The notes under the pieces are model-generated. The model saw only the letters and a list, made by a program, of their open reading frames with translations. It ran no database searches and was not told where the DNA came from. Shown here piece by piece: positions 1 to 20,165 of a stretch of DNA of 64,000 nucleotides (the stretch's first letter is position 1; each line of letters opens with the position of its first letter). The DNA comes from an uncultured bacterium (GTDB lineage: Bacteria; Edwardsbacteria; AC1; EtOH8): positions 62,001-126,000 of the forward strand of contig CALMGM010000009.1 of assembly GCA_937863685.1 (NCBI GenBank), in the 5' to 3' direction. The position numbers and the translations under genes are program-made.

Positions 1-281
1 GCCACACAGCCCCTCTGCAAAAAGATGTTGCCCCGGAAGCGGGACAGCCCCTGAATGCCGATGGAGAGGTCCAGTTCCCGTTCGGTCTCGAAGCGCTTCT
101 TCTGGCTGTCCTTGAGGATGCTGTAGGCCAGGGTCTCGGTTATCTGGGGAGTGAGGATCTCGTGGGAGGTTATCGTCAGCTCGCCGTCCACCCTGATCAC
201 CGGGGGCACCCCCACCGTCAGGTGCAGGTCGGTCCCCTTCTTCTGGATCATCTCCTCCAACAATTGAGTGAGGGTCAACAT
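1..281 (-). CDS. pilT: Type IV pilus retraction ATPase PilT, N-terminal part (runs off the window edge)
   Basis: The first 93 residues of a PilT/PilU-type secretion ATPase are visible; the rest lies beyond base 1. The protein opens MLTLTQLLEEMIQKKGTD and continues with DLHLTVGVPPVIRVDGEL, the usual PilT N-terminal PAS-like region (S/TDLHL..G.PP..R..G.L). The Walker box and catalytic part are not in the window. PilT powers pilus retraction from the cytoplasmic face of the inner membrane. The ATG is preceded by AAGGA about 10 bases upstream. It follows a PilB-type extension ATPase by 93 bases on the same strand, the common pilB-pilT arrangement, so co-transcription is likely. Identity is seen from sequence; function is from the family. 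Confidence 0.9.
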   Translation of the reverse strand, partial: MLTLTQLLEEMIQKKGTDLHLTVGVPPVIRVDGELTITSHEILTPQITETLAYSILKDSQKKRFETERELDLSIGIQGLSRFRGNIFLQRGCV

Positions 282-2144: not shown

Positions 2145-2181
2145 ATATCGGAAATCAATCTTTGATGTGTTTGATTATCAT

Positions 2182-3909
2182 TTAATCGGCGGCGGCCACC
2201 GTCTCCTTGATCACCTCGTCGATGCTGGTCACCCCGCTGACGATCTTTCGGATGCCGTCCATCCGCAGGGTGGCCATCCCCTCCTCCACCGCCTTGGCCT
2301 CTATCTTGAAGGTGGGGGCCCGTTCCAGGATCAGGTCCCTGATGGCCGGGCTGATGGGCAGCACCTCGGCCAGGCCGATCCGGCCCTTGTATCCGGTATT
2401 GCGGCATTCCGAACAGCCGCGCCCCCGGAAGGCGGTGAACCCGGTGATGTCGGCCTTGCTGCCCAGGAACTCCCGGAGCATCTTTTCCTCCGGCTTGTAC
2501 TGTTCCTTGCAGTAGGAGCATATCTTGCGGACCAGCCTCTGGGATTCCACCAGCAGCAGCGAGGAAGCTATCATGAACGGCTCCACCCCCATGTCCACCA
2601 GACGGGTGATGGTCAGCGAAGCGCTGTTGGTGTGGACGGTGGACAGCACCAGATGGCCGGTCAGGGACGACCGGATGGCGATCTCGGCGGTCTGCCGGTC
2701 GCGGATCTCCCCCACCATGATGATGTTGGGATCCTGCCGCAAAAAGGCCTTGAGGGCGGCGGCGAAGGTGGTCCCTCCGTCCTCGTGCACCGCCACCTGG
2801 TTGACGCCCATCAGACTGTACTCCACCGGCTCCTCGGCGGTCATGATATTGGTGTCGGGGTGATTGATGGCCTCCAGGCAGGCATACATGGTGGTGGTCT
2901 TGCCGGAACCGGTGGGCCCGGTGACCAGCACTATCCCGAAGGGGGTCTGCACCGCCTTCATCAGGTGCTTCAGCGGCTCCGGCTCGAACCCCAGGGTGGG
3001 CAGGTCGAAGGACACCGCGCTGCGGTCCAGGATACGCATGGCCACCTTCTCCCCGAAGGCGGTGGGAATGATGGACACCCGGATGTCGATGGGCTTGCCC
3101 TGGATGTTCATCCGCAGGCGGCCGTCCTGGGGCAGGCGCTTTTCCTCGATCTTAAGCTTGGCGATGATCTTGACCCGGGCCACGATGGAGCTCTTCATCC
3201 GCAGGGGCGGGGACATCACTTCGTGCAGCACGCCGTAGACCGACATCCTGACCCGGATGTCCTTCTCGTAAGGCTCGATGTGGATGTCGGTGGCGCTGCG
3301 TTTGACCGCCTCGGCGATCAGTCCGTTGATCAGTTTGGCCGCCGGGCTGTTCTCGATGGCCGCGGCCATCTCCGAGGCGGCATCGCCTCCCTCGTCCTTC
3401 TGATCCTCCAGGATCTCCAGCGAGCCTGCATCCTCATCGCTATCGGACTGGTCCATGGCCTTCATCACATCTTCCAGCATCCCGGCCGACCCGTATTGCT
3501 TGTCGATGGCCGACCAGATGGCGGCCTCGGAGGCTATCACCGGGCGGACCTCGAAGCCGGTGGAGAATTTGATGTCCTCCATGGCCAGCACATCGTTGGG
3601 GTTGACCATGGCCACGGTCACCGACCGGCCCAGCCGGGACAGGGGGATCAGCCCGTATTTCTGGGCGATGTGGGGCGGTATCAGTTTGAGTATCGGCTCG
3701 TCGATCTTGTAATCGTTCAGGTTGATCGAGGGCACATTGAACTGCTTGCTTAAAAAGGCCACCACCTCGTCCTCGGTGACAAAGCCCATCTTGACCAGCA
3801 GGGATCCCAGCCTCTGGCCGGAGGTCTGCTGCTCCTTGAGCGCCTTGTCCAGCTGCTCCTGGCTGATCATGCCGGCCTTGAGGAGCATATCGCCTACTTT
3901 TAACGCCAT
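2182..3909 (-). CDS. pilB: PilB/GspE-family pilus assembly ATPase, paralog 2 (canonical MshEN c-di-GMP motif)
   Basis: 575 residues. The N-terminus carries two tandem 24-residue MshEN motifs separated by exactly five residues: KVG-start at 4-27 and RLG-start at 33-56, each ending in L..Q as in known c-di-GMP-binding MshEN domains. An acidic linker (about 155-185) leads to the ATPase core: Walker A GPTGSGKTTT with Lys337, GEIRDRQTAE Asp-box, HTNSASL His-box. The zinc tetracysteine motif is intact (Cys464, Cys467, Cys499, Cys502). Predicted role is ATP-driven pilus extension, with activity probably tuned by c-di-GMP (inference from the motif). It is the first gene of the paralog2-paralog1-pilT run. 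No convincing promoter was found in the 80 bases upstream. Confidence 0.92.
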   Translation of the reverse strand: MALKVGDMLLKAGMISQEQLDKALKEQQTSGQRLGSLLVKMGFVTEDEVVAFLSKQFNVPSINLNDYKIDEPILKLIPPHIAQKYGLIPLSRLGRSVTVAMVNPNDVLAMEDIKFSTGFEVRPVIASEAAIWSAIDKQYGSAGMLEDVMKAMDQSDSDEDAGSLEILEDQKDEGGDAASEMAAAIENSPAAKLINGLIAEAVKRSATDIHIEPYEKDIRVRMSVYGVLHEVMSPPLRMKSSIVARVKIIAKLKIEEKRLPQDGRLRMNIQGKPIDIRVSIIPTAFGEKVAMRILDRSAVSFDLPTLGFEPEPLKHLMKAVQTPFGIVLVTGPTGSGKTTTMYACLEAINHPDTNIMTAEEPVEYSLMGVNQVAVHEDGGTTFAAALKAFLRQDPNIIMVGEIRDRQTAEIAIRSSLTGHLVLSTVHTNSASLTITRLVDMGVEPFMIASSLLLVESQRLVRKICSYCKEQYKPEEKMLREFLGSKADITGFTAFRGRGCSECRNTGYKGRIGLAEVLPISPAIRDLILERAPTFKIEAKAVEEGMATLRMDGIRKIVSGVTSIDEVIKETVAAAD

Positions 3910-3989: not shown

Positions 3990-6900
3990 TTATTTTAAAA
4001 TTACTAATTTTTTGGTGTTCACGTACTCCCCGGCTTGTATCCGGTAGATATAAATACCCGATGCCGCCTTTGCGCCCTTTTCATCCTTTCCGTCCCAATT
4101 GGCAGAGTAATGGCCTGAAGTATGATTACCATTGGCCAATGTTTTGACTAACTGTCCGGCGATGTTATAAACCTTAAGGCTGACATCCCCCGATTTTGCA
4201 ATTTGGTATTTGATATTTGTCATTTGGCCAAAGGGGTTGGGCGCATTCTGGTAAACAGCCGTGGTAAGAGGCAGGCCAATCGGCGTAGAAAGAGCTAATT
4301 GTGAAGTTTTAACATCGTTGCAGTCTTCGCAATCCTTGTCAAATTCATAGAGGAATATCTCTGCACAAACGGCATAATCGCCCGACACCTTGTCAATGTA
4401 TACCAAAACCTCGCCGTCCTTATTGTATGCTGCAGGTGGTATGGGTTTTTTAACAACAATTCTCTGGCCGGATATAAGCTTGGTCATTTCTTTGCAGGCG
4501 CCGTCAATATTCAATTTCTGCATCCAGTATTTACGGTTGCCGCCTTTGGCGTCCTTTTCGGCTGCTTCGTTTTGATCTTGATAATAATACACCATCTCAA
4601 TGCTGTATTTCTTGTTCTTATTGAAGCCACCAAATTTGTAAATTAGCCGCTGCGGATGATAATCCACGGTTTTATACGGCTCGGTACCAAAGATTTTGTA
4701 ACCAGCTCTTTGGATGCAATAGGGCGATAAATCTACACCACCTACATCCGCATAAATCTTGGCCACCGCAGGCACGGCTATTTTGGCGAATTTTATCTGG
4801 TAAGGCGCAGCATCGCCTTCGGTCCATGCCACAAAAAGGTTTGACCCGCCCACAGTCTGGCTGAAGCAAGCCTGGGGATAATTCGATGACGACGCCGTAT
4901 TAGAGATGTTCTTTTCGGTTGAATCCGGCCACAGGTTGCCCACTTTGCGCTTGACGTATATTTCGTTGTTTTTTGAATATGCCGCATATCCACCGGCGAC
5001 AACCACCGGCTGAACAGCAGATGAGTCAACACAACTGATCAAGCCCCAGTTTTGGGCGGTGTCTAATATTGAACGGGTAGAAACCAACGGACTGAATGGT
5101 CCCACCCAAATGCCGTCTATGCTGTTCTGCCAGCGGCTGAAGTTGAGGCAGGGCGACTCGTTCTCCCCGCCCTCGCTAATATTTTCTGCCGGGGTAATCG
5201 TGCCGGAGACATCTCTTTTTCTATAGCCGATGGCATAATATGAAGCCGGTTTTGCATCCCATGCAAAATGAGCCGCGCCAATATTATCAACCGCCACTGT
5301 CGGACACTTATAAGCAAGAATATTAACGCTGTCCAATGCGGTGTAATTCAAATAAGGTACAGCATCGTTGGTGGAAAACCAACCGCCGTAGGTAATGTCA
5401 AATAACGGAATATTCACAACATCCGGCGAAGCCAGCCAGGTAATAAAGCCGGTATCCGCTTTGCCGATAGCAAATCCCGGAACAACCTGGGGCACCAAAT
5501 CCGTAACCTGCGGCATATGGAAAGTGCCCAGAATATAAGGGTTTAACCAGCCGGTCGTGCTGTTGTATTTACTGAAATATATATTACAGTCTTTTATATT
5601 TACTTTTTTCGACCATACCACATTGGGCATTTCGTTCTTGTCCAAGGCAATGGCCGGATATTGACCCACGCCAATGGCCGTATCCGCCGACCATGTATTT
5701 CCACTATCGGTGGAATGTGTATACCAGATTTTGTCGTTTGATTGGTAGACCAGATGCAGGTTGACACCGGTGGTATCGCAGACTAATTTAGAGGCGTTGT
5801 TGTAGGCAGTGGCAAGGGGAGAATTTGAATGTTGCAGAGGATTGATATAGATAGAGGCAACATTGGAGGGAATGCTTTCATAGCCGAAGCTGTCAGTGGT
5901 TACAACATAATAATTATAAAATCCCTCCATTGCCACAGTATAGTCCGGGTAAAAAGTATCAGTTATAGCCTCTGTGTTTACTAATGTATATATCGTATCG
6001 GTTGAAGATTTGCGATAAATATTATAACCGACATAAGATTTGCTTGTTTTAGAAACAGGCGGCTGCCAGCCAAGTTGCGCATACAATGTGCCTGTTGGCT
6101 GCGTTGCATTAAGGCTGGTTGGTGGCAAATAATCCAAAACACCGTGATGCGCATAAATGCTGGTAACTTCGCTTTCATCACCGTAGTTGTACTGTGTCCA
6201 ACCGGTACGAAAATGCCTGATGCTCCAAATATGATTTGGTGGACCATATGGATCATAATTATCCATCAAATTCCAAATTTCATCATTGCCCCTACTAATA
6301 ATATCCCTTCTGGTCGGGTCTGCCGGATAAGGGTTCTCATTGTATTGGTCATAAATATCCCACAAAATGCCAGCCACCGAGCCTTCGCAGAATTCACTGG
6401 CATCAAAAGAACTGCCCAAATTACTTGAAAAATCCCAAGGATTTTCAAGATTATAATAGTAAGCAAAGGTAACAATAGGCAAAGAGCCAATTACCCCGCT
6501 ATTATTTACATACAAGCTATCCATCCCAGAACCAACCCTTGCTCTACCCGAAAAATAATTTGCCCACCCTTCAACCCATGCGGTTGTTGGCTTTGCTGAA
6601 TTGGCAATATTCCATTGATGTAAAGAATCATAATTACTAGAGTTTAATTGCACTAAATCAACACCATAACAATCCATCAAAAAATGGCCGTATTCATGGT
6701 ATATATGATCATCATCCCAATCGTCAGTATCAATAGTATCACCCCGTACATGCATCGTGTCAGAACCGAACTTATACCCTGTAGAGTTTGTGTAATTTGG
6801 TTCCCAAATAACCCTCAACTTTTTTGCTGGCGGCGCAGAGAATGAACTGGCATGCAATAAAGTTTCATAAATATTTACGACACCGCTTTGCGGCTGTTTA

Positions 6901-8279
6901 TAAACAGGGAATGTGTCAGCCCAAACCTTGCCAAAATTTATATTAGTATCACTCGGTAAAAAACTATGAGGAATGGGTAGGCCATTTTCTTGCATGGGAT
7001 ATAATGTAGAATCCGAGTCTGCATATCCCTTATCTTTCCAATAAGTGGGTATGGTGATATTAGGGTCACTTATAGATATAGCTGGCGTCGAAGGATTAGG
7101 ACCGCTGGGGTATATTACAGGATACGCTTTACAACTAGTGGCACTGCTTGGAACAGTAAATAAAGATATCGTAAAGTTTCCAGCATCATCGGTGGTTGAA
7201 TACGGAGCTAAATATCTGTATAATGTAGATTCATAGATATAGGTTATTAAAAGCTTTGCTTTAGCGGTTCCAATGTACTTTTCATCATAATCTGCCAATA
7301 GGCCTTGATCTTTGCTGTATTTATGGTCTTTGTAAACCCACTGCCCGGTAAAAGTAACAACCCCCTTACTATCGGTTTCAGATTTGCTTTTTCCCTCCCA
7401 GCTTTTCTGAACCTTGCTTTTATATTCTTTTATCCATTTCTCCCGGCCACCCGAACGAAATGCTTTCAGCCAACCGTTATCAAGATAATATTTGAACTGC
7501 TTGCTTTCGTCCCATTTATTTTCTTTTGCAATCCACACCGACTCGTAGCCGTATGGTATGCCAATTTTAAACCTGTCGGAATGCAGATTTAACGCTTCCG
7601 AATCGGTTATCGAAGGCTCTATTTTCCTGAGCATACTTATTATTCGTTTATTTTCGCCGGCATACTCGGATAACGATTCTTTGGTAAAAGAGCCGTCAAT
7701 ATAATCGTAATGGCATATGATGCTGTTTTTATCAACCCATATGTTCTTCGATTTTTCCCAATCATCACGATCACCTAATAAGCCAGTAACTGGATCAACG
7801 TAAACATAACTAACACCCCATCCGCCGGCACCCCAGCCGTTTTTGTTATCAGAAGATTGAATGCTGAAACTAACACCTATTGCTTTATATATTGTCGGGA
7901 CCTTTACAAATTTTATTGTAGCGGTAAATTCCCTGGTCTCTCCTTTACTAATTTTATAAATTAACACCCGATTTGTTCTATGGTCAGAATACTGTTTAGT
8001 GTATATTTCCTCAGTTTGAAAACCAACTGGTTGAATATCGGTAATAACCTCAACGCCCCAAAGAGAACGAAAACGCACACCAACTTTTTCTATATCTTTG
8101 TCAGAAGTTATTTTCCAAGTAATCGTTATAGGCTCATTTAACTTTGGCTTATCAGTAGAAACGTTTGCTTCTACTTTATAATGAAATGACGGTTTCATTT
8201 TGGAACCTTCGGCACCAGTGCCTATTAAAACAACAGACACTGCCACTATGGCTGCGAATATTATTTTTATTCGGTTCAT
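3990..8279 (-). CDS. Large secreted zinc-metalloprotease-like protein with C-terminal T9SS/FlgD-Ig sorting domain
   Basis: 1429 residues. A signal peptide is evident (NRIK n-region, hydrophobic IIFAAIVAVSVVLIGTG). A gluzincin-type site follows: HEYGH at 528-532 with a candidate third zinc ligand Glu570 in WVEGWANYF, so a peptidase is likely. Further on are a fibronectin-III-like stretch (LPPTSLNATQP...) near 700-800 and a BNR/sialidase-like stretch (STDSGNTWSADTAIG) after it. The end is a FlgD-Ig/T9SS type A domain: NAPNPFG, VYNIAGQLVKTL, NWDGKDEKG, SGIYIYRIQAGEY. It would be exported by Sec and then by the T9SS, whose SprA is encoded 2.4 kb away. Base composition is visibly more AT-rich than the pilus ATPases on both sides, suggesting insertion. 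Substrate is unknown. Confidence 0.8.
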   Translation of the reverse strand: MNRIKIIFAAIVAVSVVLIGTGAEGSKMKPSFHYKVEANVSTDKPKLNEPITITWKITSDKDIEKVGVRFRSLWGVEVITDIQPVGFQTEEIYTKQYSDHRTNRVLIYKISKGETREFTATIKFVKVPTIYKAIGVSFSIQSSDNKNGWGAGGWGVSYVYVDPVTGLLGDRDDWEKSKNIWVDKNSIICHYDYIDGSFTKESLSEYAGENKRIISMLRKIEPSITDSEALNLHSDRFKIGIPYGYESVWIAKENKWDESKQFKYYLDNGWLKAFRSGGREKWIKEYKSKVQKSWEGKSKSETDSKGVVTFTGQWVYKDHKYSKDQGLLADYDEKYIGTAKAKLLITYIYESTLYRYLAPYSTTDDAGNFTISLFTVPSSATSCKAYPVIYPSGPNPSTPAISISDPNITIPTYWKDKGYADSDSTLYPMQENGLPIPHSFLPSDTNINFGKVWADTFPVYKQPQSGVVNIYETLLHASSFSAPPAKKLRVIWEPNYTNSTGYKFGSDTMHVRGDTIDTDDWDDDHIYHEYGHFLMDCYGVDLVQLNSSNYDSLHQWNIANSAKPTTAWVEGWANYFSGRARVGSGMDSLYVNNSGVIGSLPIVTFAYYYNLENPWDFSSNLGSSFDASEFCEGSVAGILWDIYDQYNENPYPADPTRRDIISRGNDEIWNLMDNYDPYGPPNHIWSIRHFRTGWTQYNYGDESEVTSIYAHHGVLDYLPPTSLNATQPTGTLYAQLGWQPPVSKTSKSYVGYNIYRKSSTDTIYTLVNTEAITDTFYPDYTVAMEGFYNYYVVTTDSFGYESIPSNVASIYINPLQHSNSPLATAYNNASKLVCDTTGVNLHLVYQSNDKIWYTHSTDSGNTWSADTAIGVGQYPAIALDKNEMPNVVWSKKVNIKDCNIYFSKYNSTTGWLNPYILGTFHMPQVTDLVPQVVPGFAIGKADTGFITWLASPDVVNIPLFDITYGGWFSTNDAVPYLNYTALDSVNILAYKCPTVAVDNIGAAHFAWDAKPASYYAIGYRKRDVSGTITPAENISEGGENESPCLNFSRWQNSIDGIWVGPFSPLVSTRSILDTAQNWGLISCVDSSAVQPVVVAGGYAAYSKNNEIYVKRKVGNLWPDSTEKNISNTASSSNYPQACFSQTVGGSNLFVAWTEGDAAPYQIKFAKIAVPAVAKIYADVGGVDLSPYCIQRAGYKIFGTEPYKTVDYHPQRLIYKFGGFNKNKKYSIEMVYYYQDQNEAAEKDAKGGNRKYWMQKLNIDGACKEMTKLISGQRIVVKKPIPPAAYNKDGEVLVYIDKVSGDYAVCAEIFLYEFDKDCEDCNDVKTSQLALSTPIGLPLTTAVYQNAPNPFGQMTNIKYQIAKSGDVSLKVYNIAGQLVKTLANGNHTSGHYSANWDGKDEKGAKAASGIYIYRIQAGEYVNTKKLVILK

Positions 8280-8306
8280 TTTAGTTCAACTTTTTTATGT
8301 TTCTTT

Positions 8307-8369
8307 ATGCTGAATTTCAGCATTGCTAAGAAAGCCAATAAAATTAGACTTACGGGTATGGCCATACCC
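8307..8369. repeat. Two perfect palindromes in the leader of the metalloprotease gene
   Basis: The 160-base gap upstream of the metalloprotease holds two perfect dyads: ATGCTGAATTTCAGCAT (8307-8323) and GGGTATGGCCATACCC (8354-8369), 30 bases apart. On the minus strand both lie between the stop of PilB paralog 3 and the ATG at 8279. The first has no spacer beyond one central base and the second has none, so they resemble operator sites more than terminator hairpins. Neither is followed on the minus strand by a clean T-run, although short AT tracts are near. Function is not established. Confidence 0.5.
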
Positions 8370-8439
8370 TTAAGCGCGAAAAAATATTTCTTTCTCCTTT
8401 CCTTTTGCCCAGCTTATTAAAGTTTTACTGTTATGTTTA

Positions 8440-10134
8440 TCAATCCGCCGCGGTCTCCACAATGGCCGCCTCCAGCGTGGTCAGCCCCCGTCTGGCCTTA
8501 TCCAGCGCATCCTCGCGCAAAGATTTCATTCCCAGCTTGATGGCCATCTCCCTGATCTCGTCGGTGGAGGCCCGGGATACTATCAGCCGCCTGATCTCCG
8601 GCCCCACCGTCATTATTTCGAACACGCCCACCCGGCCCTTGTATCCGGTGTTGTTGCACTCCAGGCAACCCTTGCCCTTGAACAGTTCCACTCCCTGGAA
8701 GCTGGCGGGATCGACCCCCATCTTGAGCAACTCCTCGGAAGATACTTTATCCGGCTCCTTGCATTTGGGACATATCCGCCTGACCAGGCGCTGGGCCTCG
8801 ATCAGGTTCACCGTGGCGGCTATCAGGAAGGGCGGGATCTCCATGTCCAGAAGTCGGTTCAGGGAGCTGGGAGCGTCGTTGGTATGCAGGGTGGACAGCA
8901 CCAGGTGGCCGGTCATGGCCGCGGTCATGCCGATCTCGCCGGTCTCCCGGTCCCGGATCTCCCCCACCAGCACGATGTTGGGGTCCTGCCGCAAAAAGGC
9001 CTTGAGGGCCTTGGCGAAGGTATATCCGATCTCCGGCCAGACGTTGACCTGGTTGATCCCCATGATATCGTATTCCACCGGATCCTCGGCGGTGACGATG
9101 TTGACGCCGGGTTTGTTCAGCCGGGAGATGCCGGAATAGAGGGTCCGGGTCTTTCCCGAACCGGTGGGGCCGGTGACCAGTATCATCCCGGTGGGCCGGG
9201 CCAGGGCTTTGAGAAAATCGTCCAGGGCCTTGCCCTCGATGCCCAGCTGGGTCAGGTCGCCGCCCAGGCTGCTCTGCTCCAGCACCCGGATGACGATCTT
9301 CTCCCCGTACTTGATGGGCATGGTGGAGACCCGCAGGTCCACCGTCCGGTCGATGAGTTTGATGGAAAATCTTCCGTCCTGCGGCAGGCGCCGCTCGGTA
9401 AGGTTGAGCTTGGAGAGCACTTTGATGCGCGAGGCCAGGGCCGCCGCTATCCGGCGGGGCGGAGACATGGTCTCCTGCAGCACCCCGTCGATGCGGTAGC
9501 GCACCCGCAGCACTTTTTCGTAGGGTTCGATGTGGATGTCGGAGGCCCCGCGTTTGATGGCGTCGATGACGATGCTGTTGACCAGCTTCACCACCGGGGT
9601 GGATTCGATCTCGGCCTGGCTGGCCACCTCCTCCACGTCCTTGTCCACCAGCTCCATGTCCTCGGCGGCGATCTCCTGCTCCACCGATTTCAGGGCCTCG
9701 GCCCGGGTGGTGCTGCCGTAATACTTGTCCAGGGCCTTCTCCAGCGAGGTCTCGGCGCACACCACCGGCTTGACCTCCATCCCGGTAAGAAAGGCGATGT
9801 TCTCCATGGTGAAGACATCGGCGGCGTTGGACATGGCCAAAAACAGGATCCGGCCGGTCCGCTTGATCGGCATCACCTGGAATTTCTGGGCTATCTCCGG
9901 GGGGATCAGTTTCAAGACCTGGGGATCCAGTTCGGCGGTGGAAAGATTCACCGTGGGAAGGTTGAGCTGCTTGCCCAAAAATTGGGTGATGGAATCCTCG
10001 GTCATAAAACCGAGTTTTATCAGGCTGGAGCCCAGCTTGGCCCCGGAGCTCTTCTGCTCGGCCAGGGCCTTGTCCAGCTGATCTTTGGTTATCAGCCCGG
10101 ACTGCACCAGCATGTCGCCTAATTTCAAACCCAT
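8440..10134 (-). CDS. pilB: PilB/GspE-family pilus assembly ATPase, paralog 3
   Basis: 564 residues from the ATG at 10134, chosen over an in-frame start 45 bases upstream because GAGGGAG lies 6-8 bases before it and the protein then begins MGLKLGDML exactly like paralog 2. Tandem MshEN motifs start KLG at 4-6 and KLG at 33-35, with the same five-residue spacer. Walker A is GPTGSGKTRT (Lys328; an Arg replaces the usual Thr two residues later). GEIRDRETGE and HTNDAPSS boxes follow, and a full tetracysteine motif (Cys455, Cys458, Cys490, Cys493). It is separated from the other two paralogs by the 4.3 kb metalloprotease gene and has its own strong promoter. Which pilus or secretion machine each paralog serves cannot be told from sequence. 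Confidence 0.92.
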   Translation of the reverse strand: MGLKLGDMLVQSGLITKDQLDKALAEQKSSGAKLGSSLIKLGFMTEDSITQFLGKQLNLPTVNLSTAELDPQVLKLIPPEIAQKFQVMPIKRTGRILFLAMSNAADVFTMENIAFLTGMEVKPVVCAETSLEKALDKYYGSTTRAEALKSVEQEIAAEDMELVDKDVEEVASQAEIESTPVVKLVNSIVIDAIKRGASDIHIEPYEKVLRVRYRIDGVLQETMSPPRRIAAALASRIKVLSKLNLTERRLPQDGRFSIKLIDRTVDLRVSTMPIKYGEKIVIRVLEQSSLGGDLTQLGIEGKALDDFLKALARPTGMILVTGPTGSGKTRTLYSGISRLNKPGVNIVTAEDPVEYDIMGINQVNVWPEIGYTFAKALKAFLRQDPNIVLVGEIRDRETGEIGMTAAMTGHLVLSTLHTNDAPSSLNRLLDMEIPPFLIAATVNLIEAQRLVRRICPKCKEPDKVSSEELLKMGVDPASFQGVELFKGKGCLECNNTGYKGRVGVFEIMTVGPEIRRLIVSRASTDEIREMAIKLGMKSLREDALDKARRGLTTLEAAIVETAAD

Positions 10135-10156
10135 AGCATCTCCCTCAATTTGAAAT

Positions 10157-10186
10157 ACTATAGCATATGCAAGTTGCAAATGTCAA
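10157..10186 (-). promoter_or_regulatory. Sigma-70-type promoter for PilB paralog 3
   Basis: On the minus strand a perfect -35 TTGACA (10181-10186) is followed after 18 bases by TATAGT (10157-10162). The start codon is 23 bases further on, with a good ribosome binding site between. This indicates that paralog 3 can be transcribed separately from the comEA-like gene upstream. Confidence 0.7.
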
Positions 10187-10213
10187 GCAATTTGTCTTTT
10201 AACATGATGTCCC

Positions 10214-10639
10214 TTAATGGTCTACAAATACATGCTCCCGGAGGCGGTTGAATTTTTTATGACCGATGCCCTTGACCTTCATCAGGTCCTCAACCTGGCG
10301 GAATCCCCCGGAATTCTGCCGGTAGTCTATTATCCTTTTGGCCATGGCCGGCCCGATGCTGGGAAGCCTCTCCAGGTCCCGGCTCCCGGCCTGATTGATG
10401 TCGATCCTGCCGGCCAGGATCTTCTTGGCCGGATAACGACCGCTGTCCCGGACCTCTGCCTGATCCGGAACGGCCGGGACCCCGGCAGCCTGCGGCTCCG
10501 GAAGCCGGAGCCCGCCGTATTTGAGCTCCGGGGCAAAGGTCGGATGACTCTTCTTGTAGAGCAGCACCGCATTGCCCAGAGCCAGGGCCGCTATGAAGAA
10601 TATTATGACCTTTTTTTCGTCGGGGGTCAGACCAAACAT
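10214..10639 (-). CDS. ComEA-like membrane-anchored helix-hairpin-helix protein
   Basis: 141 residues. A single membrane segment (VIIFFIAALALGNAVLLY, about 11-28) is followed by a Pro/Ala-rich linker and a ComEA-type double HhH domain from RIDINQAGSRDLERLP (78-93) with IGPAMAKRI and a second hairpin VKGIGHKKF (122-130). ComEA proteins bind double-stranded DNA in the periplasm during natural transformation, together with type IV pili. Its location between sprA and a PilB gene fits a competence or pilus role. It ends 79 bases before the PilB paralog 3 start and begins 18 bases after the sprA stop, so it may be transcribed with sprA. No comEC is visible in the window. Confidence 0.85.
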   Translation of the reverse strand: MFGLTPDEKKVIIFFIAALALGNAVLLYKKSHPTFAPELKYGGLRLPEPQAAGVPAVPDQAEVRDSGRYPAKKILAGRIDINQAGSRDLERLPSIGPAMAKRIIDYRQNSGGFRQVEDLMKVKGIGHKKFNRLREHVFVDH

Positions 10640-10657
10640 TTTCCGTTCCCCCAGGGT

Positions 10658-13600
10658 TTAAAATTTTATCTCCACCGCCGCGTTGAAGGCGGTCCGGGTG
10701 CGGTTGTTGCTCTTGGCAAGCTTGTCATCGGTGAAGCTGTAGTCCAGGGTGGCCGACCCGGTTATGCTCCTGGTGAAATTGTATCTGGCGCTGGGAGAGA
10801 TGGAGAACTCGTGCACCAGTGAGGTGTAGCCCAGGTCCGTAATCTTGTCATAGGCGGTCTCGGTGATCAACTGCCGGAGGGCGGCCAGCTCGCCGTCCGG
10901 GATGGCGTTCCGGTTGCCGATGATGGAATAGCCGAGCTGAGACTGCAGGCTGAGCTCGCTGTTGAATTTTATCCGCTTCTTGCCCAGCTTCCACAGATTG
11001 AGCTTGAACCCCTTGGGGGCGCTGAAGGAGTAGGACAGCGAGCTGCTGGCCTTGAAGCTCTGGGTGTAGGTATCCCGGCCCTGGCCGGCCACGTCGTCGT
11101 TCTTCTGGCTGCTGTAATCGAAGCCCAGGCTGGTGGCGACATTTTTCTTCCAGCGGTTGGACAGCGACAACAGGGGGCTGAAATTGTTCTTGGTGGAGAT
11201 CCGGACCAGGGCCTTTTGATTCTCCCAGGTCTTGTCGATGGTCCGGCTGTAGGAGGATGTCAAATTGGCGCTGCTCACGGCCTTTTTCCACAGCGACCAT
11301 CTCTCCAGCCCGGCCAGGGTGGCACTCAGCTGGGGCCAGGTGACGCTGCGGCTGGAGTTCATGGCATCACCCACTATGGTGGTGTCGTCGCTGCGGCGGA
11401 ACGACAGGTTCAGCGACAGCTTCATCAGGTCCAGGCTGGTGCTCAGGGAATAGGAGTTGCGGATGGTGCTTCGGTCCTGGTTGGCCTGGAAATACCGGGG
11501 GATATCGGGGACCTCTTGCTTCAGCCCCAGCTGGTAGAGCAGGCCGGGACGCCTCATCAGCAGATTCGAGGCCTGGCTGGAAAGGTCCCGGCTGTATGAG
11601 GCCTGTATACCGCCCAGCCGGTTGAAGAGATAATCCAGCTTGGCCACCAGCCAGCGGGGGCTGCCCGTTTCGGCTGAATCATCCTTGGCCTTGTTGCGCA
11701 GGCCGGTGACCCTGGCCATCCATTTGCCGACATCCAGATTGCCGTTAAGGGAAAGGGCGTTGGAATTGCTGACATTCAGCAGGTGGAAGGTGTCCACCAG
11801 GTTGGGTTTGGCCGCCAGGCTGTGCCCTTCGCCGTACTGGGTGGAAAAGGCCAGGCTGGGCTTGACCACCTTAAGCCAGTTGATAGTGGTGCTGTAGTTG
11901 ATCCTCTGGGAGCGCGAGACCTCGGAGCCCAGATCCAGCCTCCTGGCCCATTCCCCCTGGAAGAACCGGTCCCTGAGGTTGCGCCTGGTATCGATAGAAT
12001 AGCTCAGGGAATTCATCAGCTGCCAGGAGAGCTGCCCCTGGCCGATCCGGGTGTCGCCGCTGCCGGTGTTGTTCTCCACCCCGGTCAGCTTGTCCCAATA
12101 CCAGTGCCGCGTCTGACTGCGGGACCAGCCCAGGCCAAAAGAGCTGGGCAGATAATAGAACTCCAGGCCGGGCCAGGTTTTTAAGGTCCTTTTCCCGGCG
12201 GAGACCCAGCTATAGCCCAGGCTCAAATTGGTGGTGGTGGTGCTGTCCGAAGAGGTCCGGCTGTCGGATATTCTTCTGTTCCAGCTGGCCTGGGGCGACA
12301 GCCGGTCGATGGTCAGGTTGGTCAGCCACCACTGGGAGATCTTTTTGCTCAGGGAGGCATTCAGCCCCAAGTTCTGGCTGGATGACATCTGGGCCCGGCT
12401 CTCCTCCTCGGAAAGCCTGATATCGTCGCCGCCGTACTCATTGTACTGCTGGGCTTCGCCGTATTGAAATCCGACGGGCAGGGCCAGCCCCAGCCGCTCC
12501 AGATAGAGTTTGTGGGTGTTGAATGTGCCGTTCAGGCTGTAGCTGATGTCCTTAACCCCGGAGCCGGTGCCGCTGGAGTTTATCCCGTACCAGTGGCTCC
12601 CGGTCTTGTTATAGGCCGCATTGAGAGAGAGCAGATCGGCAAAATTCACCGCCATGCTGGTGGCTATGGCGGTGCCCCGGTCCCGGCGGACGTCGTCCAG
12701 CCGCAGTTCGTCGAACCACACCTCGTCGCTGAGGACCCTGGCGGTGTCGTCGTTGAAGACGCACAGGGCGATCCGGGTCAGGTTCAGCAGGCTGGGGTTG
12801 CCTTTTAACGCGTAGCCGCCGCTGGTCCTGATCTTGTCGGTGGTGTCGGCCGGAAAAGGCAGTTTCTTCAGGTCGCTGAACTTCTGGATATCCAGGGAGA
12901 GCTCCTGCCATCCGGAAGACAGGGACTGCCGGAATTGATAATAGCTGTTGGTGTCGTTGCCGATCAGCCGCAGGGCGACCGATTTTTTAACAAAATCGGC
13001 GGGATTGCCGTGGACCCATATCTTAAGGGTTTTGTACCCGGCGTAGTTGTTCTCCCCCCCCCGCAGGATCTTCCTGGCGCTGACATAATGCCCGGAGCGC
13101 AGGCTGTCGATGTTGAAAACCAGGCTCTGCTCGAACTCCACCCGTCCCTGGTCGTCCTTCTGCTCGGTATTGGGGGGGATGATGTAATCGGGGTCATCCC
13201 GGTTATTTTTCACCTCGATGTTGAATTTTTCCGTGGTGTCGACGCTGTTCAAAGTATCGGACGTGAACACTCCCTGTTCCTGCCAGCGGTTGCCGCTGAC
13301 CTCGATCATGGCTATCTGAAAAGAGGCGATGGCCGGACAGCTGTCCACCCAGATCCGGGCATACTGAATGGAGGTCCAGCCCAGCGGCGGGCCCACCGGC
13401 TTGGCCGAGTCCAGCAGGGCCGACAACTGATACCAGCCGTAAATATTGGAATCGCATTCAGAGAGATCGAACCGGAAGGTGTAATAATTATTGCCCATCT
13501 GGGGGGCCGCGCTGCTGTCCAGGCCGTTCATCTTCAGGTCCTCGGTATCGTAATAGCCGTTGCCCTCGGTCCCGTTTATTTTCCGGTAATTCGGTGTGCT

Positions 13601-16330
13601 GATATCGACATAATAATCGTCGTTGCCGTCGTCCCCCGCCTTGTTCAGGCTGTCAACGCCGGCCGTCCCGTCCAGACCGATGTCGGTGGCATCGGCATAG
13701 ACCGGTTCCCGGTTCAGGTTCAGCGGCTCGCAATCTATCTTATAGTTCCTGGGATGGAAACCGCTTTTTGTCCACCATACCTGGTCCTCGTCGATGTTCC
13801 GGCCGATGTCGATATGGACTATGCCCTTCCCGTTTTTCCCCTTTATCCACAGGTTCAGCAGTTTGCTCTGGCTGAGGTCCAGACCGGTCTTGCTCACCAG
13901 CTGGGTGATGCCGGCCCATGAATTCATGGTGTCCTGGTGCCCGGCCTCATATTTTAAAAGCAATGTATTGATGGTCTCGTTCTGCTGGGTCTCGTCGGTG
14001 ATGGCCGGGTTGATCTCCTTCATGAGGACCTGCTTGGTCGGGTTGTACCAGTAAAATGTCTTGGCCAGCAAGGTATCGGCCCTGATCAGCGAGGTGTCGG
14101 CAAGTTTGGCCGGCGGCACGCTGGAGCGCACCCAGGCCGAACGGCTCAGGTTGAGTTCGTCGGACATCTTGCTGCCGTCCATATCGTCGATGTACACCTG
14201 CCCCTTGGTGTTGGGGTTGGGGAAATTCCCGGCGATCTCCCCGGCCAGCTTGAAATTTGACGGGGCCTCGGTCTCCACCAGCGGGATGGCGTTGGTCCAG
14301 TTGGTCAGGAAATCGGGTGCGGCCTGGTAGCTTCCGTCCAGTCCGGCCACGATGATCCGGCGGGGCTCCTCGCCCAGCCGGGGTTTCTCGTCCGGGGTCT
14401 GCTCGCTGCGGTACAGCCAGGTGCCTCCCAGCTGGGCGTTCTCCCCGAACTTATAGATGCCCCTCATCCCCACCAGGGTCTTGGAACCCAGGGCGAAGGA
14501 CGGCAGATACTGGTAATCTATATTGAGGGCGGCATTGCTGTTCTGCAGTTCGTTCTTGATCCGTTCGTTGAAGGTGACGGTCCCCATCTCGTAATCCACC
14601 GAATATTCGCTGCTGGAGACCGGAGCCCCGTTCAGGGTGACGCTGACCGAGCCCTCCAGCAGGCGGCCGGGGGCATTGAGGGAATACACCGCCACGGTGG
14701 ATTTGTAGGTGACGATGAAGCGGTATTTCGGGATATAACTGTCCAGATTCTTGACCTGGTAGATCTCCGGGCAGATTGCCGGCAGACTATCGTATAGAAA
14801 TGGCTGTCCATTCTCCTTAAGAAAGAAAAAATATCCCTCCTCCTGGTTGATGTAATTGTCATAGAGTACCCCGTTGTTCTCCAGGCCCAGGATCTCCAGG
14901 AATTTCTTCTGGCTGGCCGAATCGTAATCGACATATTCGCTGTTCTTATAATACTGCAGCTTGATGGCCAGGGTGGAGAAATCAATTCCCCTCCCTTGCA
15001 GGGAATAATAATTCCTCCTTTCATAATTCCAGCAATAACCGTTAATGGTATCGGCCGGCTGGCAATTGGGAGGCTTGACCAGCATCAGGGTGCGGGAACT
15101 GTCAAAATCCGTTTTGCTGGGATAATAGACCCCGTTCTTGGTGAGATATGTCACTCCCAACTCCGATTGATCATAAAGACCGTTGGTCAGTATGATCCGG
15201 CCGGTGGAAGCGTCGTCCAGGATGAAATCGGTGATCTCGGTCTTGATATCCATCATCACCGGGCCATACATGGTGTCCCGGGCGAAGCCCCTGAAATCCC
15301 TCCAGCTCCGGTCGATCAGATAATGGCTGGTGGCGTTGGTGCTGGTGAAATCGTTCCTGACAAAGACCTTGATGGCCGCAATGGCATCGCCCTCGGGCAA
15401 TCCGCCGGGGATGATCTCGAAAACCGTGTGCAGCAGGTAGTCTTTTTCGGAAAAAGCGACTGAATCCTTCCGGTTGGAACCGGAGAAGGTGCTGGTCTGG
15501 CTCTGACCCTCGTCCTTGCTGGCGATGGCCGTCAGCTCGAAGCCCCCCAGCCGGGCCACCCCCTTCAGCCCGAACAGCCCCTTATGGACGGTGGTCAGGC
15601 CCCCGGCCAAAGAGGAACCGTTCAGGGAAAATTCGGTGTCCCCGGCCTCCAGGCTCTGCAGGATCTCGTCCTCCTTGCCTTCGTACCGCAAACGCACCTT
15701 GCTGCGCTTGTCCAGCTCGGCCTCGCTGTCGTAATCGATCAGCACATGCACCCGGTCCCCGATCACCCCCTCCAGATTTATCCTCTGCTCCTGTTTGATG
15801 TTGATCTTGTTGTCGTCGGCGGTGCTGCCGGCATCCAGATCCCGGCCGATCTGGCTATAGGAGGTGCGGTCGAAACCGGCGGTTATCTTCTGGTTGCCGT
15901 TGACCTTGATCTGGGCTCCCGAGCCCAGGACCTTGCCCAGCCCCGGAATGGGTATCTGGATGTCCGGGATCAGCCCCTCACCGGTCCTCTCCTGGGCCGG
16001 CTTGGACAGAAAATCATAATTGTTCCTGGTCCAGACGCTGTCGGTTCCCTTAAGACGGAGTTTTTCCAGATAGGAGCTCAGGCTGTAATAACTGGTGCTG
16101 GACAACTGCTGCTGCACCGACTGCTGTTCGATCATCAATCCCAGACGGTAATCTATGCTGTAGCTGTTGCCCTGGATATTTTTCCGGAAGTTTTGGGCAT
16201 TGTACTGGGCCGCCATTTCCTCCAACGGCCCGAACTCCTGGGCCCGGGCCTCCCCGGCTATTGCCAGGACCAGCACCGCCAGGACGGCGGCCAGATACAG
16301 CGGATATATTTTGGGTTCTCTGCCAAGCAT
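10658..16330 (-). CDS. sprA: T9SS outer-membrane translocon protein SprA/Sov-like
   Basis: 1890 residues. A signal peptide (LYLAAVLAVLVLAIAGEARA, about 12-31) precedes a mature protein starting QEFGPLEEM. Family signatures include PIPGLGKVLGSGAQIKVNG, RDLDAGSTADDNKINIKQEQ, IGDRVHVLIDYDSEAELD and the region FPNPNTKGQVYIDDMDGSK. The second half is rich in alternating Ser/Tyr/Leu strands typical of a very large beta barrel, and the chain ends in an aromatic-type residue (EIKF). SprA is the large outer-membrane pore that releases T9SS substrates. The protein is shorter than the roughly 2,400-2,500 residues of Flavobacterium and Porphyromonas homologs. It is divergent from lptF across an 82-base gap. 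Confidence 0.88.
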   Translation of the reverse strand: MLGREPKIYPLYLAAVLAVLVLAIAGEARAQEFGPLEEMAAQYNAQNFRKNIQGNSYSIDYRLGLMIEQQSVQQQLSSTSYYSLSSYLEKLRLKGTDSVWTRNNYDFLSKPAQERTGEGLIPDIQIPIPGLGKVLGSGAQIKVNGNQKITAGFDRTSYSQIGRDLDAGSTADDNKINIKQEQRINLEGVIGDRVHVLIDYDSEAELDKRSKVRLRYEGKEDEILQSLEAGDTEFSLNGSSLAGGLTTVHKGLFGLKGVARLGGFELTAIASKDEGQSQTSTFSGSNRKDSVAFSEKDYLLHTVFEIIPGGLPEGDAIAAIKVFVRNDFTSTNATSHYLIDRSWRDFRGFARDTMYGPVMMDIKTEITDFILDDASTGRIILTNGLYDQSELGVTYLTKNGVYYPSKTDFDSSRTLMLVKPPNCQPADTINGYCWNYERRNYYSLQGRGIDFSTLAIKLQYYKNSEYVDYDSASQKKFLEILGLENNGVLYDNYINQEEGYFFFLKENGQPFLYDSLPAICPEIYQVKNLDSYIPKYRFIVTYKSTVAVYSLNAPGRLLEGSVSVTLNGAPVSSSEYSVDYEMGTVTFNERIKNELQNSNAALNIDYQYLPSFALGSKTLVGMRGIYKFGENAQLGGTWLYRSEQTPDEKPRLGEEPRRIIVAGLDGSYQAAPDFLTNWTNAIPLVETEAPSNFKLAGEIAGNFPNPNTKGQVYIDDMDGSKMSDELNLSRSAWVRSSVPPAKLADTSLIRADTLLAKTFYWYNPTKQVLMKEINPAITDETQQNETINTLLLKYEAGHQDTMNSWAGITQLVSKTGLDLSQSKLLNLWIKGKNGKGIVHIDIGRNIDEDQVWWTKSGFHPRNYKIDCEPLNLNREPVYADATDIGLDGTAGVDSLNKAGDDGNDDYYVDISTPNYRKINGTEGNGYYDTEDLKMNGLDSSAAPQMGNNYYTFRFDLSECDSNIYGWYQLSALLDSAKPVGPPLGWTSIQYARIWVDSCPAIASFQIAMIEVSGNRWQEQGVFTSDTLNSVDTTEKFNIEVKNNRDDPDYIIPPNTEQKDDQGRVEFEQSLVFNIDSLRSGHYVSARKILRGGENNYAGYKTLKIWVHGNPADFVKKSVALRLIGNDTNSYYQFRQSLSSGWQELSLDIQKFSDLKKLPFPADTTDKIRTSGGYALKGNPSLLNLTRIALCVFNDDTARVLSDEVWFDELRLDDVRRDRGTAIATSMAVNFADLLSLNAAYNKTGSHWYGINSSGTGSGVKDISYSLNGTFNTHKLYLERLGLALPVGFQYGEAQQYNEYGGDDIRLSEEESRAQMSSSQNLGLNASLSKKISQWWLTNLTIDRLSPQASWNRRISDSRTSSDSTTTTNLSLGYSWVSAGKRTLKTWPGLEFYYLPSSFGLGWSRSQTRHWYWDKLTGVENNTGSGDTRIGQGQLSWQLMNSLSYSIDTRRNLRDRFFQGEWARRLDLGSEVSRSQRINYSTTINWLKVVKPSLAFSTQYGEGHSLAAKPNLVDTFHLLNVSNSNALSLNGNLDVGKWMARVTGLRNKAKDDSAETGSPRWLVAKLDYLFNRLGGIQASYSRDLSSQASNLLMRRPGLLYQLGLKQEVPDIPRYFQANQDRSTIRNSYSLSTSLDLMKLSLNLSFRRSDDTTIVGDAMNSSRSVTWPQLSATLAGLERWSLWKKAVSSANLTSSYSRTIDKTWENQKALVRISTKNNFSPLLSLSNRWKKNVATSLGFDYSSQKNDDVAGQGRDTYTQSFKASSSLSYSFSAPKGFKLNLWKLGKKRIKFNSELSLQSQLGYSIIGNRNAIPDGELAALRQLITETAYDKITDLGYTSLVHEFSISPSARYNFTRSITGSATLDYSFTDDKLAKSNNRTRTAFNAAVEIKF

Positions 16331-16412: not shown

Positions 16413-17645
16413 ATGAAGATAATCGACCGGCATCTGATCAGGGGATTGGCCCTGCCTTTCGTCCTGTCGCTCAGCGTCCTGACCTTCGTTCTGCTGATGG
16501 ACCGGCTGTTCGAGCTGATCAATATGATCATCCAGAAGAAGGTGCCGGTGCTGACGGTCAGCAAGGTCTTTTTCCTGAGCCTGCCATACATGCTGACCAT
16601 GACCATCCCCATGGCGGTGCTGGTGGCGGTGATCATGAATTACGGACGGCTGTCCCAGGACAACGAACTGACGGCCCTCAAGTCCAGCGGGGTCCCCTTC
16701 ATCCGGCTGCTGGCGGCCCCCCTGCTGGCCGGGATCATCCTGACCGTCGGGCTGTTCTTTTTCAACGACCGCCTGATGCCCGAAACCAACCACCGGGTGA
16801 AGAACCTGCTGATGGACATCTCCGAGACCAAGCCCACCCTCCAGCTCAAGGAGAACATCTTTATCACCGATTTCACCGGCTACAACATCCTTATCCGGCG
16901 GATCGATCCCAAGACCTCGGAACTGGGCAACGTCACCATCTATGAACAAAAGGACAACTCCCAGCCCCGGACCATCCTGGCCTCCAAGGGCCATCTGCTG
17001 GTCTCCCCCCAGGCCGCCTCGCTCAAACTGGAGCTGAGCGACGGAGAGATACACCAGATGGACCCCGAGGACAAGACCCGTTACCACCGCATGAGCTTTA
17101 AAAAACACATCATCTACCTGCCGATGGATCCCCAGATCCAGCATCAGGTGCGGACCTACCGCAGCGACCGGGAGATGTCTTCGGGCATGATGCGACAGGC
17201 CATCGCCGCTATCCGGAACGAGCTGCGTCCTCTGCAGGCCCAGCTGGCCGACAGTTCCCGCCTCCCGCCTCCCCGTTTTAGCCAGCTGTCATCGGAGGTC
17301 CATAATCGGATATCTGAGATCCGTCGTTACCAGGTGGAGATCCAAAAGAAAATGGCCATTCCGGCGGCCTGCCTGGTGTTCATCCTGATCGGGGCCCCTC
17401 TGGGGGTCATCACCCGCAAAGGCAACCTGGGGGTCAGCTTCGGGCTGTCGCTGGGATTTTTCATCCTATATTATGTGGCCCTGATCGGCGGCGAGGAATT
17501 GGCCGACCGGCAGATCCTCTCCCCGGTGCTGGCCATGTGGGCCGCCAACATTGTGCTGGGGGGTTGCGGCCTGGTCCTGTTGTTCTGGAAGAATTATGAA
17601 TTAAGTTTTAAAAAGAACCGCTATGCCGATAAAAATATTGGATAA
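16413..17645 (+). CDS. lptF: LPS export ABC transporter permease LptF-like
   Basis: 410 residues from the ATG at 16413, chosen because the upstream extension lies in sprA antisense sequence and family homology begins MKIIDRHLIRGLALPF. Family layout is clear: three N-terminal membrane segments (FVLSLSVLTFVLLMDRLFEL, the IPMAVLVAVIMNYG region, LLAGIILTVGLFFFND), a periplasmic beta-jellyroll (about 120-290) and three C-terminal segments. Motifs such as NELTALKSSGVPFIRL and LVFILIGAPLGVITRKGNLG are typical of YjgP/YjgQ permeases. With LptG and LptB it would extract LPS from the inner membrane. It overlaps lptG by 23 bases. No lptB, lptC or lptA is visible here. Confidence 0.9.
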   Translation: MKIIDRHLIRGLALPFVLSLSVLTFVLLMDRLFELINMIIQKKVPVLTVSKVFFLSLPYMLTMTIPMAVLVAVIMNYGRLSQDNELTALKSSGVPFIRLLAAPLLAGIILTVGLFFFNDRLMPETNHRVKNLLMDISETKPTLQLKENIFITDFTGYNILIRRIDPKTSELGNVTIYEQKDNSQPRTILASKGHLLVSPQAASLKLELSDGEIHQMDPEDKTRYHRMSFKKHIIYLPMDPQIQHQVRTYRSDREMSSGMMRQAIAAIRNELRPLQAQLADSSRLPPPRFSQLSSEVHNRISEIRRYQVEIQKKMAIPAACLVFILIGAPLGVITRKGNLGVSFGLSLGFFILYYVALIGGEELADRQILSPVLAMWAANIVLGGCGLVLLFWKNYELSFKKNRYADKNIG

Positions 17646-18711
17646 ATATCTTTCCCGGGAGTTTCTGAAGTCGCTGATCTTTTCGCAGGCCGCCTTTGTG
17701 CTGATCTTCGTACTGGTGGATATCTTCGAAAAACTGGATATGTTCATTGACAACCGGGCGCCCTATCTTCTGGTATCCCTCTTTTATATCTATCAGATAC
17801 CGTATATAATGATACTGACCCTGCCGGTGGCCATGCTGCTGGCCAGTATGGCCACCATCAGCCAGATGGCCCGCCACCACGAGATTGTGGCCATGAAAGC
17901 CGCCGGACTGAGCCTCTACCGGATATTCGCCCCCCTGTTCCTGCTGGGCCTGATGATAAGCCTGGGGGTGATGGTGGTAGGCGAGACCATCGTGCCGTTC
18001 ACCAACCAGAAAAAGGGGAATCTGGAGAGGATCCAAATAAAGAAGCAGCTATCCCAGGAGCCCCAGATCAGATTCAACCTTTTATATGATGGCAGCGACG
18101 GCCGCCAGTTCTTCATCAAAAGATACAACGTGGCCGGCGCAGTGATGGATTCGGTGTCCATATTCCAGGTCGACCAGCAGAACCGGATATTACAGAGAGT
18201 GGACGCGGCCCGGGGTACCTGGACCGGAGACGCTTGGTTGCTGGAGAAGGTCATAACCCGCAAATTCAATAAAGACGGGACCGAAATATCCGACAGCCTG
18301 TCCCGAATGAAGCTGGCCGGCTACCAGGAGACCCCGGCATCGTTCTCCAAGCGCGAACTGTTGCCCGATGAGATGAGTTTCTTTGAACTGCGCCAGTTCA
18401 TCGACCGGTTGAAAAGGTCCGGCAATCAGGTGCAGCAGTCGGTGGTGGACCTGTACCTCAAGCTGTCTTTTCCCTTCGCCAATTTCATCATCCTGCTGTT
18501 CGGCCTTCCGCTGTTGTCCAACTCCCGCAAAGGCAGCGCCGCCTCGGGCTTCGCCATTTCATTGTTGATATGTTTCGTTTTCTGGGGACTGTTGCAGACC
18601 GGGCGTGCCCTGGGACACAACGCCTCGCTTTCTCCCATACTGGCGGCCTGGCTGCCCAATATCATTTTCGGGGCCATCGGTGCCTTCCTGCTCTACCGGG
18701 CTCCCAAATAA
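17623..18711 (+). CDS. lptG: LPS export ABC transporter permease LptG-like
   Basis: 362 residues, second YjgP/YjgQ-family permease, translationally coupled to lptF through a 23-base overlap. It begins PIKILDKYLSREFLKSL and shows the membrane segments FVLIFVLVDIFEKLDMF, YIMILTLPVAMLLASMATI, LFLLGLMISLGVMVVGETIV, then a periplasmic domain and C-terminal segments including FANFIILLFGLPLLSNSRKG. The motif EIVAMKAAGLSLYRI matches LptG-type coupling helices. It forms the membrane dimer with LptF for LPS transport. Which of the pair is F and which is G is assigned by order and is less certain than the family. The gene is followed by a strong terminator. Confidence 0.88.
   Translation: MPIKILDKYLSREFLKSLIFSQAAFVLIFVLVDIFEKLDMFIDNRAPYLLVSLFYIYQIPYIMILTLPVAMLLASMATISQMARHHEIVAMKAAGLSLYRIFAPLFLLGLMISLGVMVVGETIVPFTNQKKGNLERIQIKKQLSQEPQIRFNLLYDGSDGRQFFIKRYNVAGAVMDSVSIFQVDQQNRILQRVDAARGTWTGDAWLLEKVITRKFNKDGTEISDSLSRMKLAGYQETPASFSKRELLPDEMSFFELRQFIDRLKRSGNQVQQSVVDLYLKLSFPFANFIILLFGLPLLSNSRKGSAASGFAISLLICFVFWGLLQTGRALGHNASLSPILAAWLPNIIFGAIGAFLLYRAPK

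Positions 18712-18899: not shown

Positions 18900-20165
<1,266 letters not shown>

Follow-up and report, generated by a model that had tools for sequence, protein, structure and literature searches.

A SprA-type translocon gene adjoins a type IVa pilus cluster in an Edwardsbacteria genome and in distant bacterial lineages

The type IX secretion system (T9SS) is usually described as a proton-driven machine of the Bacteroidota and close relatives, in which SprA is the exporter of CTD proteins, PorV their shuttle, and PorU the enzyme that cleaves and anchors them. Type IVa pili are extended by PilB and retracted by PilT, with PilQ as their pore, and the MshEN domains found in this system bind c-di-GMP. 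A 2016 paper reports the T9SS to be confined to Bacteroidetes, with 60 of 97 genomes positive (PMC4793230). A 2024 paper assigns it to the Fibrobacteres-Bacteroidetes-Chlorobi (FCB) superphylum and gives an account of the GldL-GldM motor (PMC11205867). The TIGR04183 domain is reported to be restricted to the same superphylum (PMC4737851), and Melioribacter to have Por tails together with some pil genes (PMC3534657). Our search of the open-access literature, bioRxiv preprints aside, turned up no paper on a locus joining SprA to pilus genes or on a SprA that lacks GldLM.

Here we analyze a 64,000-nucleotide stretch of DNA (the window) whose genome resembles these systems in some respects and departs from them in others. 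Like the T9SS of Flavobacterium johnsoniae and Porphyromonas gingivalis, it combines SprA, PorU, a PorV-family protein (the putative shuttle), and many C-terminal sorting domains; unlike them, it has no detected GldL or GldM, and the PorV of its PorU operon carries an insertion of ∼490 residues. SprA is flanked here by LptFG, ComEA, and pil genes, whereas in two GldLM-bearing genomes (G212 and G342) its neighbor is RuvA, with GcvH in one of them. The pilus genes have the content and order of known type IVa clusters (pilB-pilT-pilC-pilS-pilR, with pilM-N-O-P-Q elsewhere), but SprA and ComEA stand at the head, some lineages have two or three tandem PilB genes, and a single Edwardsbacteria protein unites the PilS sensor part with the sigma-54 activator and has no kinase domain match. 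The ComEA-like protein shares with the ComEA DNA-uptake receptor a membrane-anchor-like N terminus and a helix-hairpin-helix C terminus, but it scores under the ComEA model cut-off and adjoins SprA. Outside Edwardsbacteria, SprA can be accompanied by an M28 protein that matches solved M28-type glutaminyl cyclases (6qro and 6qql); in Edwardsbacteria no such gene adjoins SprA.

The gene at 10658..16330 (-) encodes an 1,890-residue protein that we identify as SprA/Sov, the T9SS outer-membrane translocon, upholding the assignment made in the earlier note on this DNA. It scored 371.7 bits against the equivalog model TIGR04189 (cut-off, 200) and 50.9 bits against Pfam SprA_N (cut-off, 27), and a profile built from 13 SprA relatives matched the solved F. 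johnsoniae SprA (6h3i) at 677 bits. The closest named SprA loci belong to Candidatus Edwardsbacteria (78% identity to DeMMO3_1 and 44 to 46% to UBP2 bins), and these nearest records place the host in Candidatus Edwardsbacteria/UBP2, outside the Bacteroidota. In a 41-genome sample, SprA was present in 10/10 genomes of family f1 and in 8/31 others; in a wider search, TIGR04189 matched in 156 of 386 genomes, in 97 of them above the cut-off.

Downstream of SprA the minus-strand order is the ComEA-like gene, PilB_a, a metalloprotease-like gene with a T9SS sorting tail, PilB_b, PilB_c, and the start of PilT. All the genes that the earlier note had listed beside SprA (a ComEA-like protein, three PilB-type ATPases, and the tailed metalloprotease-like protein) are thus present on this strand; its interval of 3990-16330 was too narrow, as two of the PilB genes lie outside it at 375-3909. 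The ComEA-like gene (10214..10639 [-]) begins 18 bp after SprA, and its product has an N-terminal hydrophobic segment (by eye) and a C-terminal helix-hairpin-helix that scored 74.2 bits against HHH_3 (cut-off, 27) and 66.3 bits against the ComEA model TIGR01259, whose cut-off is 152; the solved ComE operon protein 1 (8dss/8dfk) is among its structure matches. PilB_a (8440..10134 [-]; the open reading frame, 8440-10179, opens with TTG at 10179, and an ATG lies at 10134) is an extension ATPase that scored 690.8 bits against TIGR02538, above the cut-off of 675.65. PilB_b (2182..3909 [-]; 672.7 bits) and PilB_c (375..2144 [-]; 671.8 bits), separated by 37 bp, fall just below that value. All three carry the c-di-GMP-binding MshEN domain, and the c-di-GMP motif NF053729 is above its cut-off of 38 bits in PilB_a (72.5 bits) and PilB_b. 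PilT starts at 1..281 (-), a start coordinate estimated from 356-residue relatives, and continues past the window edge (L033:19211-20000; 590 bits by HMM on that part). Beyond the edge follow PilC, a PilS-PilR-like protein, and two pilin-bearing genes, so that the Edwardsbacteria locus holds three PilB genes and one each of PilT and PilC. Divergent from SprA are genes for an LptF-type permease (16413..17645 [+]; ATG chosen by eye in a frame that opens at 16167) and an LptG-type permease (17623..18711 [+]), both named by sequence likeness, and the conserved neighborhood is flanked by a gene at 18900..20156 (-) that is S-adenosylhomocysteine hydrolase-like by its sequence.

Two genes just beyond the window have unusual architectures. 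A single 724-residue protein (L033:15749-17923 [-]) combines a PilS-like domain with six transmembrane segments, PAS, a sigma-54 activator, and HTH_8, with no histidine-kinase match; it would represent a PilS-PilR fusion that bypasses phosphotransfer. Just left of the window (L033:14607-15686 [-]), one open frame encodes a type IV prepilin, which scored 37.1 bits against N_methyl and has GFTLIELM near residue 189, and ahead of it a HAMP-like transmembrane region (21.5 bits against PF00672, whose cut-off is 25). This fused frame is also uninterrupted in G002, G003, and G006; the gene at that place in G001 encodes a plain pilin.

The type IVa pilus set is nearly complete in the genome, with PilB, PilT (by HMM), PilC (T2SSF, 208.6 bits), PilA (N_methyl, 38.4 bits), and PilD (A24 domains) all present. 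One operon on contig C1 encodes PilM (218.1 bits), PilN (66.2 bits), PilO (109.3 bits), a weakly matching PilP (20.5 bits versus 25.6), and a PilQ-type secretin (142.8 bits); a second secretin lies on contig C5. ComEC is also encoded, as it is in 71 of 76 genomes searched. We considered SprA as the pilus outer-membrane pore and rejected this, since this genome (G000) and the five outside genomes with the block all have secretins, and this genome also encodes PilM, PilN, PilO, and PilQ. Within Edwardsbacteria, G002 gave no secretin match, though its assembly is rated 100% complete and its congeners carry one or two.

Further T9SS components are encoded away from the block. PorU (L125:6633-10574) scored 615 bits against NF033707 (cut-off, 420) and is followed by a PorV-family gene and then by a T9SS-tailed M6-like protein. 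The PorV-family gene (L125:10608-13082 [+]) scored 186 bits against NF033709 (cut-off, 90) and 120.5 bits against the PorV equivalog NF033710 (cut-off, 250). Its ∼490-residue insertion, near the N terminus, is predicted with low to moderate confidence to be all-helical, from a weak model (mean pLDDT, 63.7; pTM, 0.44), and in G012 and G018, too, the gene behind PorU is a long PorV. Immediately upstream of PorU lies the prepilin peptidase PilD (L125:5530-6375 [+]), an arrangement shared by six Edwardsbacteria genomes (G000, G001, G002, G003, G006, and G009), with no such pair seen in G004; PilD-PorU is a second T9SS-pilus neighborhood in this phylum. Downstream of PorU-PorV lies a large, weakly SprA-like protein (L125:18123-19868 and L126:17069-19999; 47 and 40 bits with the SprA HMM), and its L126 version had no Pfam or NCBIfam match.

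The genome further contains six Peptidase_C25 matches and 93 type A sorting tails (TIGR04183) in 2.72 Mb. Sorting tails were counted in 38 of the 41 sampled genomes (all but G005, G007, and G008): 15/15 SprA-positive genomes carry 10 to 113 tails, and 19/23 genomes without a SprA match have no tails, the other 4 having 2 to 5; one of these four, G026, had a weak TIGR04189 match (E = 8e-11) in the 386-genome search. Among 23 of the 41 genomes, C25 peptidases occur in 13/15 SprA-positive and 1/8 SprA-negative genomes, and PorV-family proteins occur in 15/15 and 4/8, respectively, indicating that the PorV family is less specific.

The motor components were not found. This genome gave no GldM match, and its best GldL match reached 16.6 bits against a cut-off of 68.3. 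We searched 68 SprA-positive genomes drawn from the 156 with TIGR04189 matches at about one per family (G038 among them matched only at E = 6e-20), and GldL and GldM were both above cut-off in only two, G212 and G342, which serve as positive controls; the other 66 had no GldM and no GldL above cut-off. These two genomes have the highest SprA scores and the RuvA-SprA order typical of Bacteroidota, and in G342 GcvH also adjoins SprA (RuvA and GcvH were identified by eye). The known motor is thus absent as far as the GldL and GldM models reach, and these may miss very remote homologs. The earlier note had proposed a search of the genome for further T9SS and pilin genes, and PorU, a PorV-family protein, 93 tails, and pilins were found; GldL and GldM were not, and the canonical T9SS that it implied is not supported. 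The adverse outcomes that it had named in advance, no SprA match or no other T9SS components, did not occur. PilB as a general T9SS motor was rejected, since four SprA-positive, GldLM-negative genomes (G062, G121, G206, and G290) have no PilB among the matches listed and no secretin match.

The metalloprotease-like protein (3990..8279 [-]; 1,429 residues) is a T9SS cargo by its C terminus, which matches TIGR04183 at 44 bits (cut-off, 23) and FlgD_ig at 44.9 bits (cut-off, 27), and it contains an HEYGH motif of the HExxH type. It is a variable passenger in the block: it is missing from the block in 5 of 8 Edwardsbacteria genomes examined (G001, G002, G003, G005, and G006), and relatives elsewhere occupy other positions, just before PilB_a in G009 (30% identity over 662 residues) and just before PilB_c in G004 (42% over 160 residues), for which reasons we rejected it as a fixed member. 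The presence of one such gene is also ordinary, as 93 tails in 2.72 Mb give a chance of ∼0.34 of at least one in a stretch of 12.3 kb.

The association of SprA with pil genes is another matter. We rejected the possibility that it occurs only in Edwardsbacteria, because the same block is present in at least five family-level lineages outside the phylum (G341, G070, G111, G249, and G377). The recurring order has LptG-LptF divergent from SprA, which is followed by an optional glutaminyl-cyclase-like M28 gene, an optional ComEA-like gene, one to three PilB genes, PilT, PilC, and PilS/PilR. M28 is present in G070 and G111, the ComEA-like gene in G341, G070, and G111, and these lineages have one or two PilB genes; no ComEA was found by HMM next to SprA in G249 or G377, and the contig of G377 ends upstream of SprA, so the LptFG side cannot be read there. 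Between SprA and the PilB pair, G377 encodes a response regulator (L169:10371-11420 [-]) with an HD_5 domain, presumably of the HD-GYP type, in keeping with c-di-GMP control.

In at least 5 of 64 non-Edwardsbacteria genomes, SprA is followed within a few kilobases by PilB-family genes of the same strand, where random placement of PilB-like genes predicts 0.29 (Poisson P = 1.4e-5); counting the five linked genomes as three lineages gives P = 0.0033. The base for this estimate is the 64 genomes, because the alternative locus count of 5/41 is biased by those five loci having been fetched for the linkage. The outside proteins have diverged to 20 to 31% identity to those of the window for SprA and 48 to 53% for PilB, and the SprA proteins of the five lineages have at most 37% identity to named loci. 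The recurrence of the order outside the phylum indicates that the SprA-pil adjacency is kept by selection or by very old linkage and not by chance, and the same order in such distant bacteria suggests that two surface machines have long been kept together. The co-location claimed in the earlier note is deeper than first stated for SprA and the pilus genes, recurring as it does outside the phylum, and weaker for the cargo, which most Edwardsbacteria blocks lack.

Phylogenetic analysis adds detail to this history. Of the outside lineages, G111 comes closest in SprA, PilT, PilC, and LptG and shares first place with G070 in PilB. A SprA tree was built from 63 of 85 rows (fragments and near-copies were dropped); Edwardsbacteria and G111 group together in it with support of 97, and the two remaining linked pairs fall in other parts of the 40-row clade to which these belong. 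The shared proximity and the grouping in the SprA tree fit co-inheritance. In the PilB tree, the first, SprA-proximal PilB of G111 groups with PilB_b (support, 90) and the second, PilT-proximal one groups with PilB_c (support, 96). As the paralogs keep the same order in both, the tandem pair and the block predate the split between Edwardsbacteria and G111.

Parts of the order are found more widely than the whole. In counts that leave out six named loci repeating a genome or a close relative, LptFG is divergent from SprA in 7/7 Edwardsbacteria loci and in 21/59 others with enough upstream sequence; an M28 enzyme lies beside SprA in 22/57 non-Edwardsbacteria loci (e.g., L044, L045, L046, L047, L098, and L099), and a ComEA-like gene directly follows SprA or SprA-cyclase in 11/55 with enough downstream sequence, mostly without a nearby PilB. 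For one of the SprA-neighbor M28 proteins, the matches include bacterial glutamine cyclotransferases of known structure (6qro, E = 1.3e-58; 6qql, E of ∼1e-50). Glutaminyl-cyclase-like M28 genes thus lie beside SprA outside Edwardsbacteria, although the N-terminal glutamine rule has been reported to be specific to Bacteroidetes (PMC5837995). Other pilus genes also occur near SprA: in G067, SprA-ComEA is followed by a pilin-like gene and PilM, and at a Cloacimonadota locus (L102), PilM-N-O-P-Q lie ∼5 kb beyond SprA on the opposite strand.

A single transcription unit for the whole block is not supported in Edwardsbacteria. A sigma-70-type promoter-like site, TTGACA-18-TATAGT (11/12 consensus matches), lies before PilB_a at 10157..10186 (-); the same site is present in G001, G002, and G003, and similar sites were seen by eye before PilB_a in G004, G005, and G006 and before the first PilB of G111. 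The conservation of this site between ComEA and PilB indicates that expression of the pil genes in Edwardsbacteria can be independent of SprA. In G070, where no such site was seen by eye in the 46-bp gap, the tight spacing suggests read-through.

The explanation that we favor, with somewhat better than even confidence, is that the locus joins a type IVa pilus/competence-type cluster to the SprA arm of a T9SS variant in which the known motor, GldL-GldM, is missing, in an old, inherited, and probably coregulated surface program. Cargo would cross the inner membrane by Sec and the outer membrane through SprA, and a PorV-family shuttle would take it to PorU to be anchored at the surface. In parallel, pili would be extended by c-di-GMP-responsive PilB and retracted by PilT, with the secretin PilQ as their separate pore; the ComEA-like protein may bind incoming DNA in the periplasm or work with SprA. 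A cell with such a program, whether surface-attached, twitching, or taking up DNA, would display secreted enzymes and adhesins, and the locus would gather surface functions that benefit an attached cell in combination. This explanation makes no claim of a direct mechanical link between the secretion and pilus machines, and the joint function (export plus motility or DNA uptake) is something we infer from the gene order. Several observations weigh against it: a PilB near SprA is the exception outside the phylum (at least 5/64), the linkage needs three changes on the SprA tree and so requires repeated formation or much loss, and the promoter-like site separates ComEA from PilB in both Edwardsbacteria and G111.

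The scarcity of the PilB linkage among SprA-positive genomes and the housekeeping genes (MetK, AHCY, and LptFG) in the neighborhood of several lineages could instead mean that the order is an old relic without functional meaning, retained by hitch-hiking in slowly rearranging genomes. We consider this unlikely, given that the order is retained despite the divergence of SprA and that the spacing is tight in several lineages. A little less likely still is that the functional link is confined to SprA and the ComEA-like protein, with the latter acting as a T9SS accessory factor through its helix-hairpin-helix type of fold or otherwise, and that the pil genes adjoin because ComEA belongs to both systems. 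The 11/55 outside loci in which a ComEA-like gene follows SprA or SprA-cyclase mostly without PilB argue for it, as do the pair in G121, which has no PilB among the matches listed and no secretin match, and the pair in the L121 record, whose genome shows no ComEC. However, an ordinary competence role is available almost everywhere, since 71 of 76 genomes have ComEC; the few genomes missing it are mostly draft assemblies, and in G067 it is pilus genes that come after SprA-ComEA.

A more ambitious proposal is that the pilus machine powers or gates secretion, with a PilB-driven pseudopilus or a PilB paralog giving the force for cargo release from SprA; outside Bacteroidota-like genomes, export would then proceed without GldLM, and at SprA-PilB loci the pilus ATPases would drive or gate it via c-di-GMP. 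The rarity of GldL and GldM (2/68, both with the RuvA-SprA order), the position of SprA close upstream of PilB in six families, and the three PilB genes per one PilT and one PilC in Edwardsbacteria are compatible with this idea. It is nonetheless very improbable: the four GldLM-negative genomes G062, G121, G206, and G290 are SprA-positive without a PilB-family match (among the matches listed) or a secretin match, the genome has its own secretins, so that SprA need not serve the pilus, and the pil genes have their own promoter-like site. If true, it would mean that a secretion system and a pilus machine are coupled in one locus.

The conserved order names the ComEA-like protein, the PilB paralogs, and the glutaminyl-cyclase-like M28 enzyme as candidate partners for joint regulation or function with SprA. 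SprA and sorting tails in many families without the known motor, together with a C25-type sortase in most genomes where it was sought, raise the question of what energizes the translocon, which is open to experiment wherever a bacterium carrying the locus is in culture.
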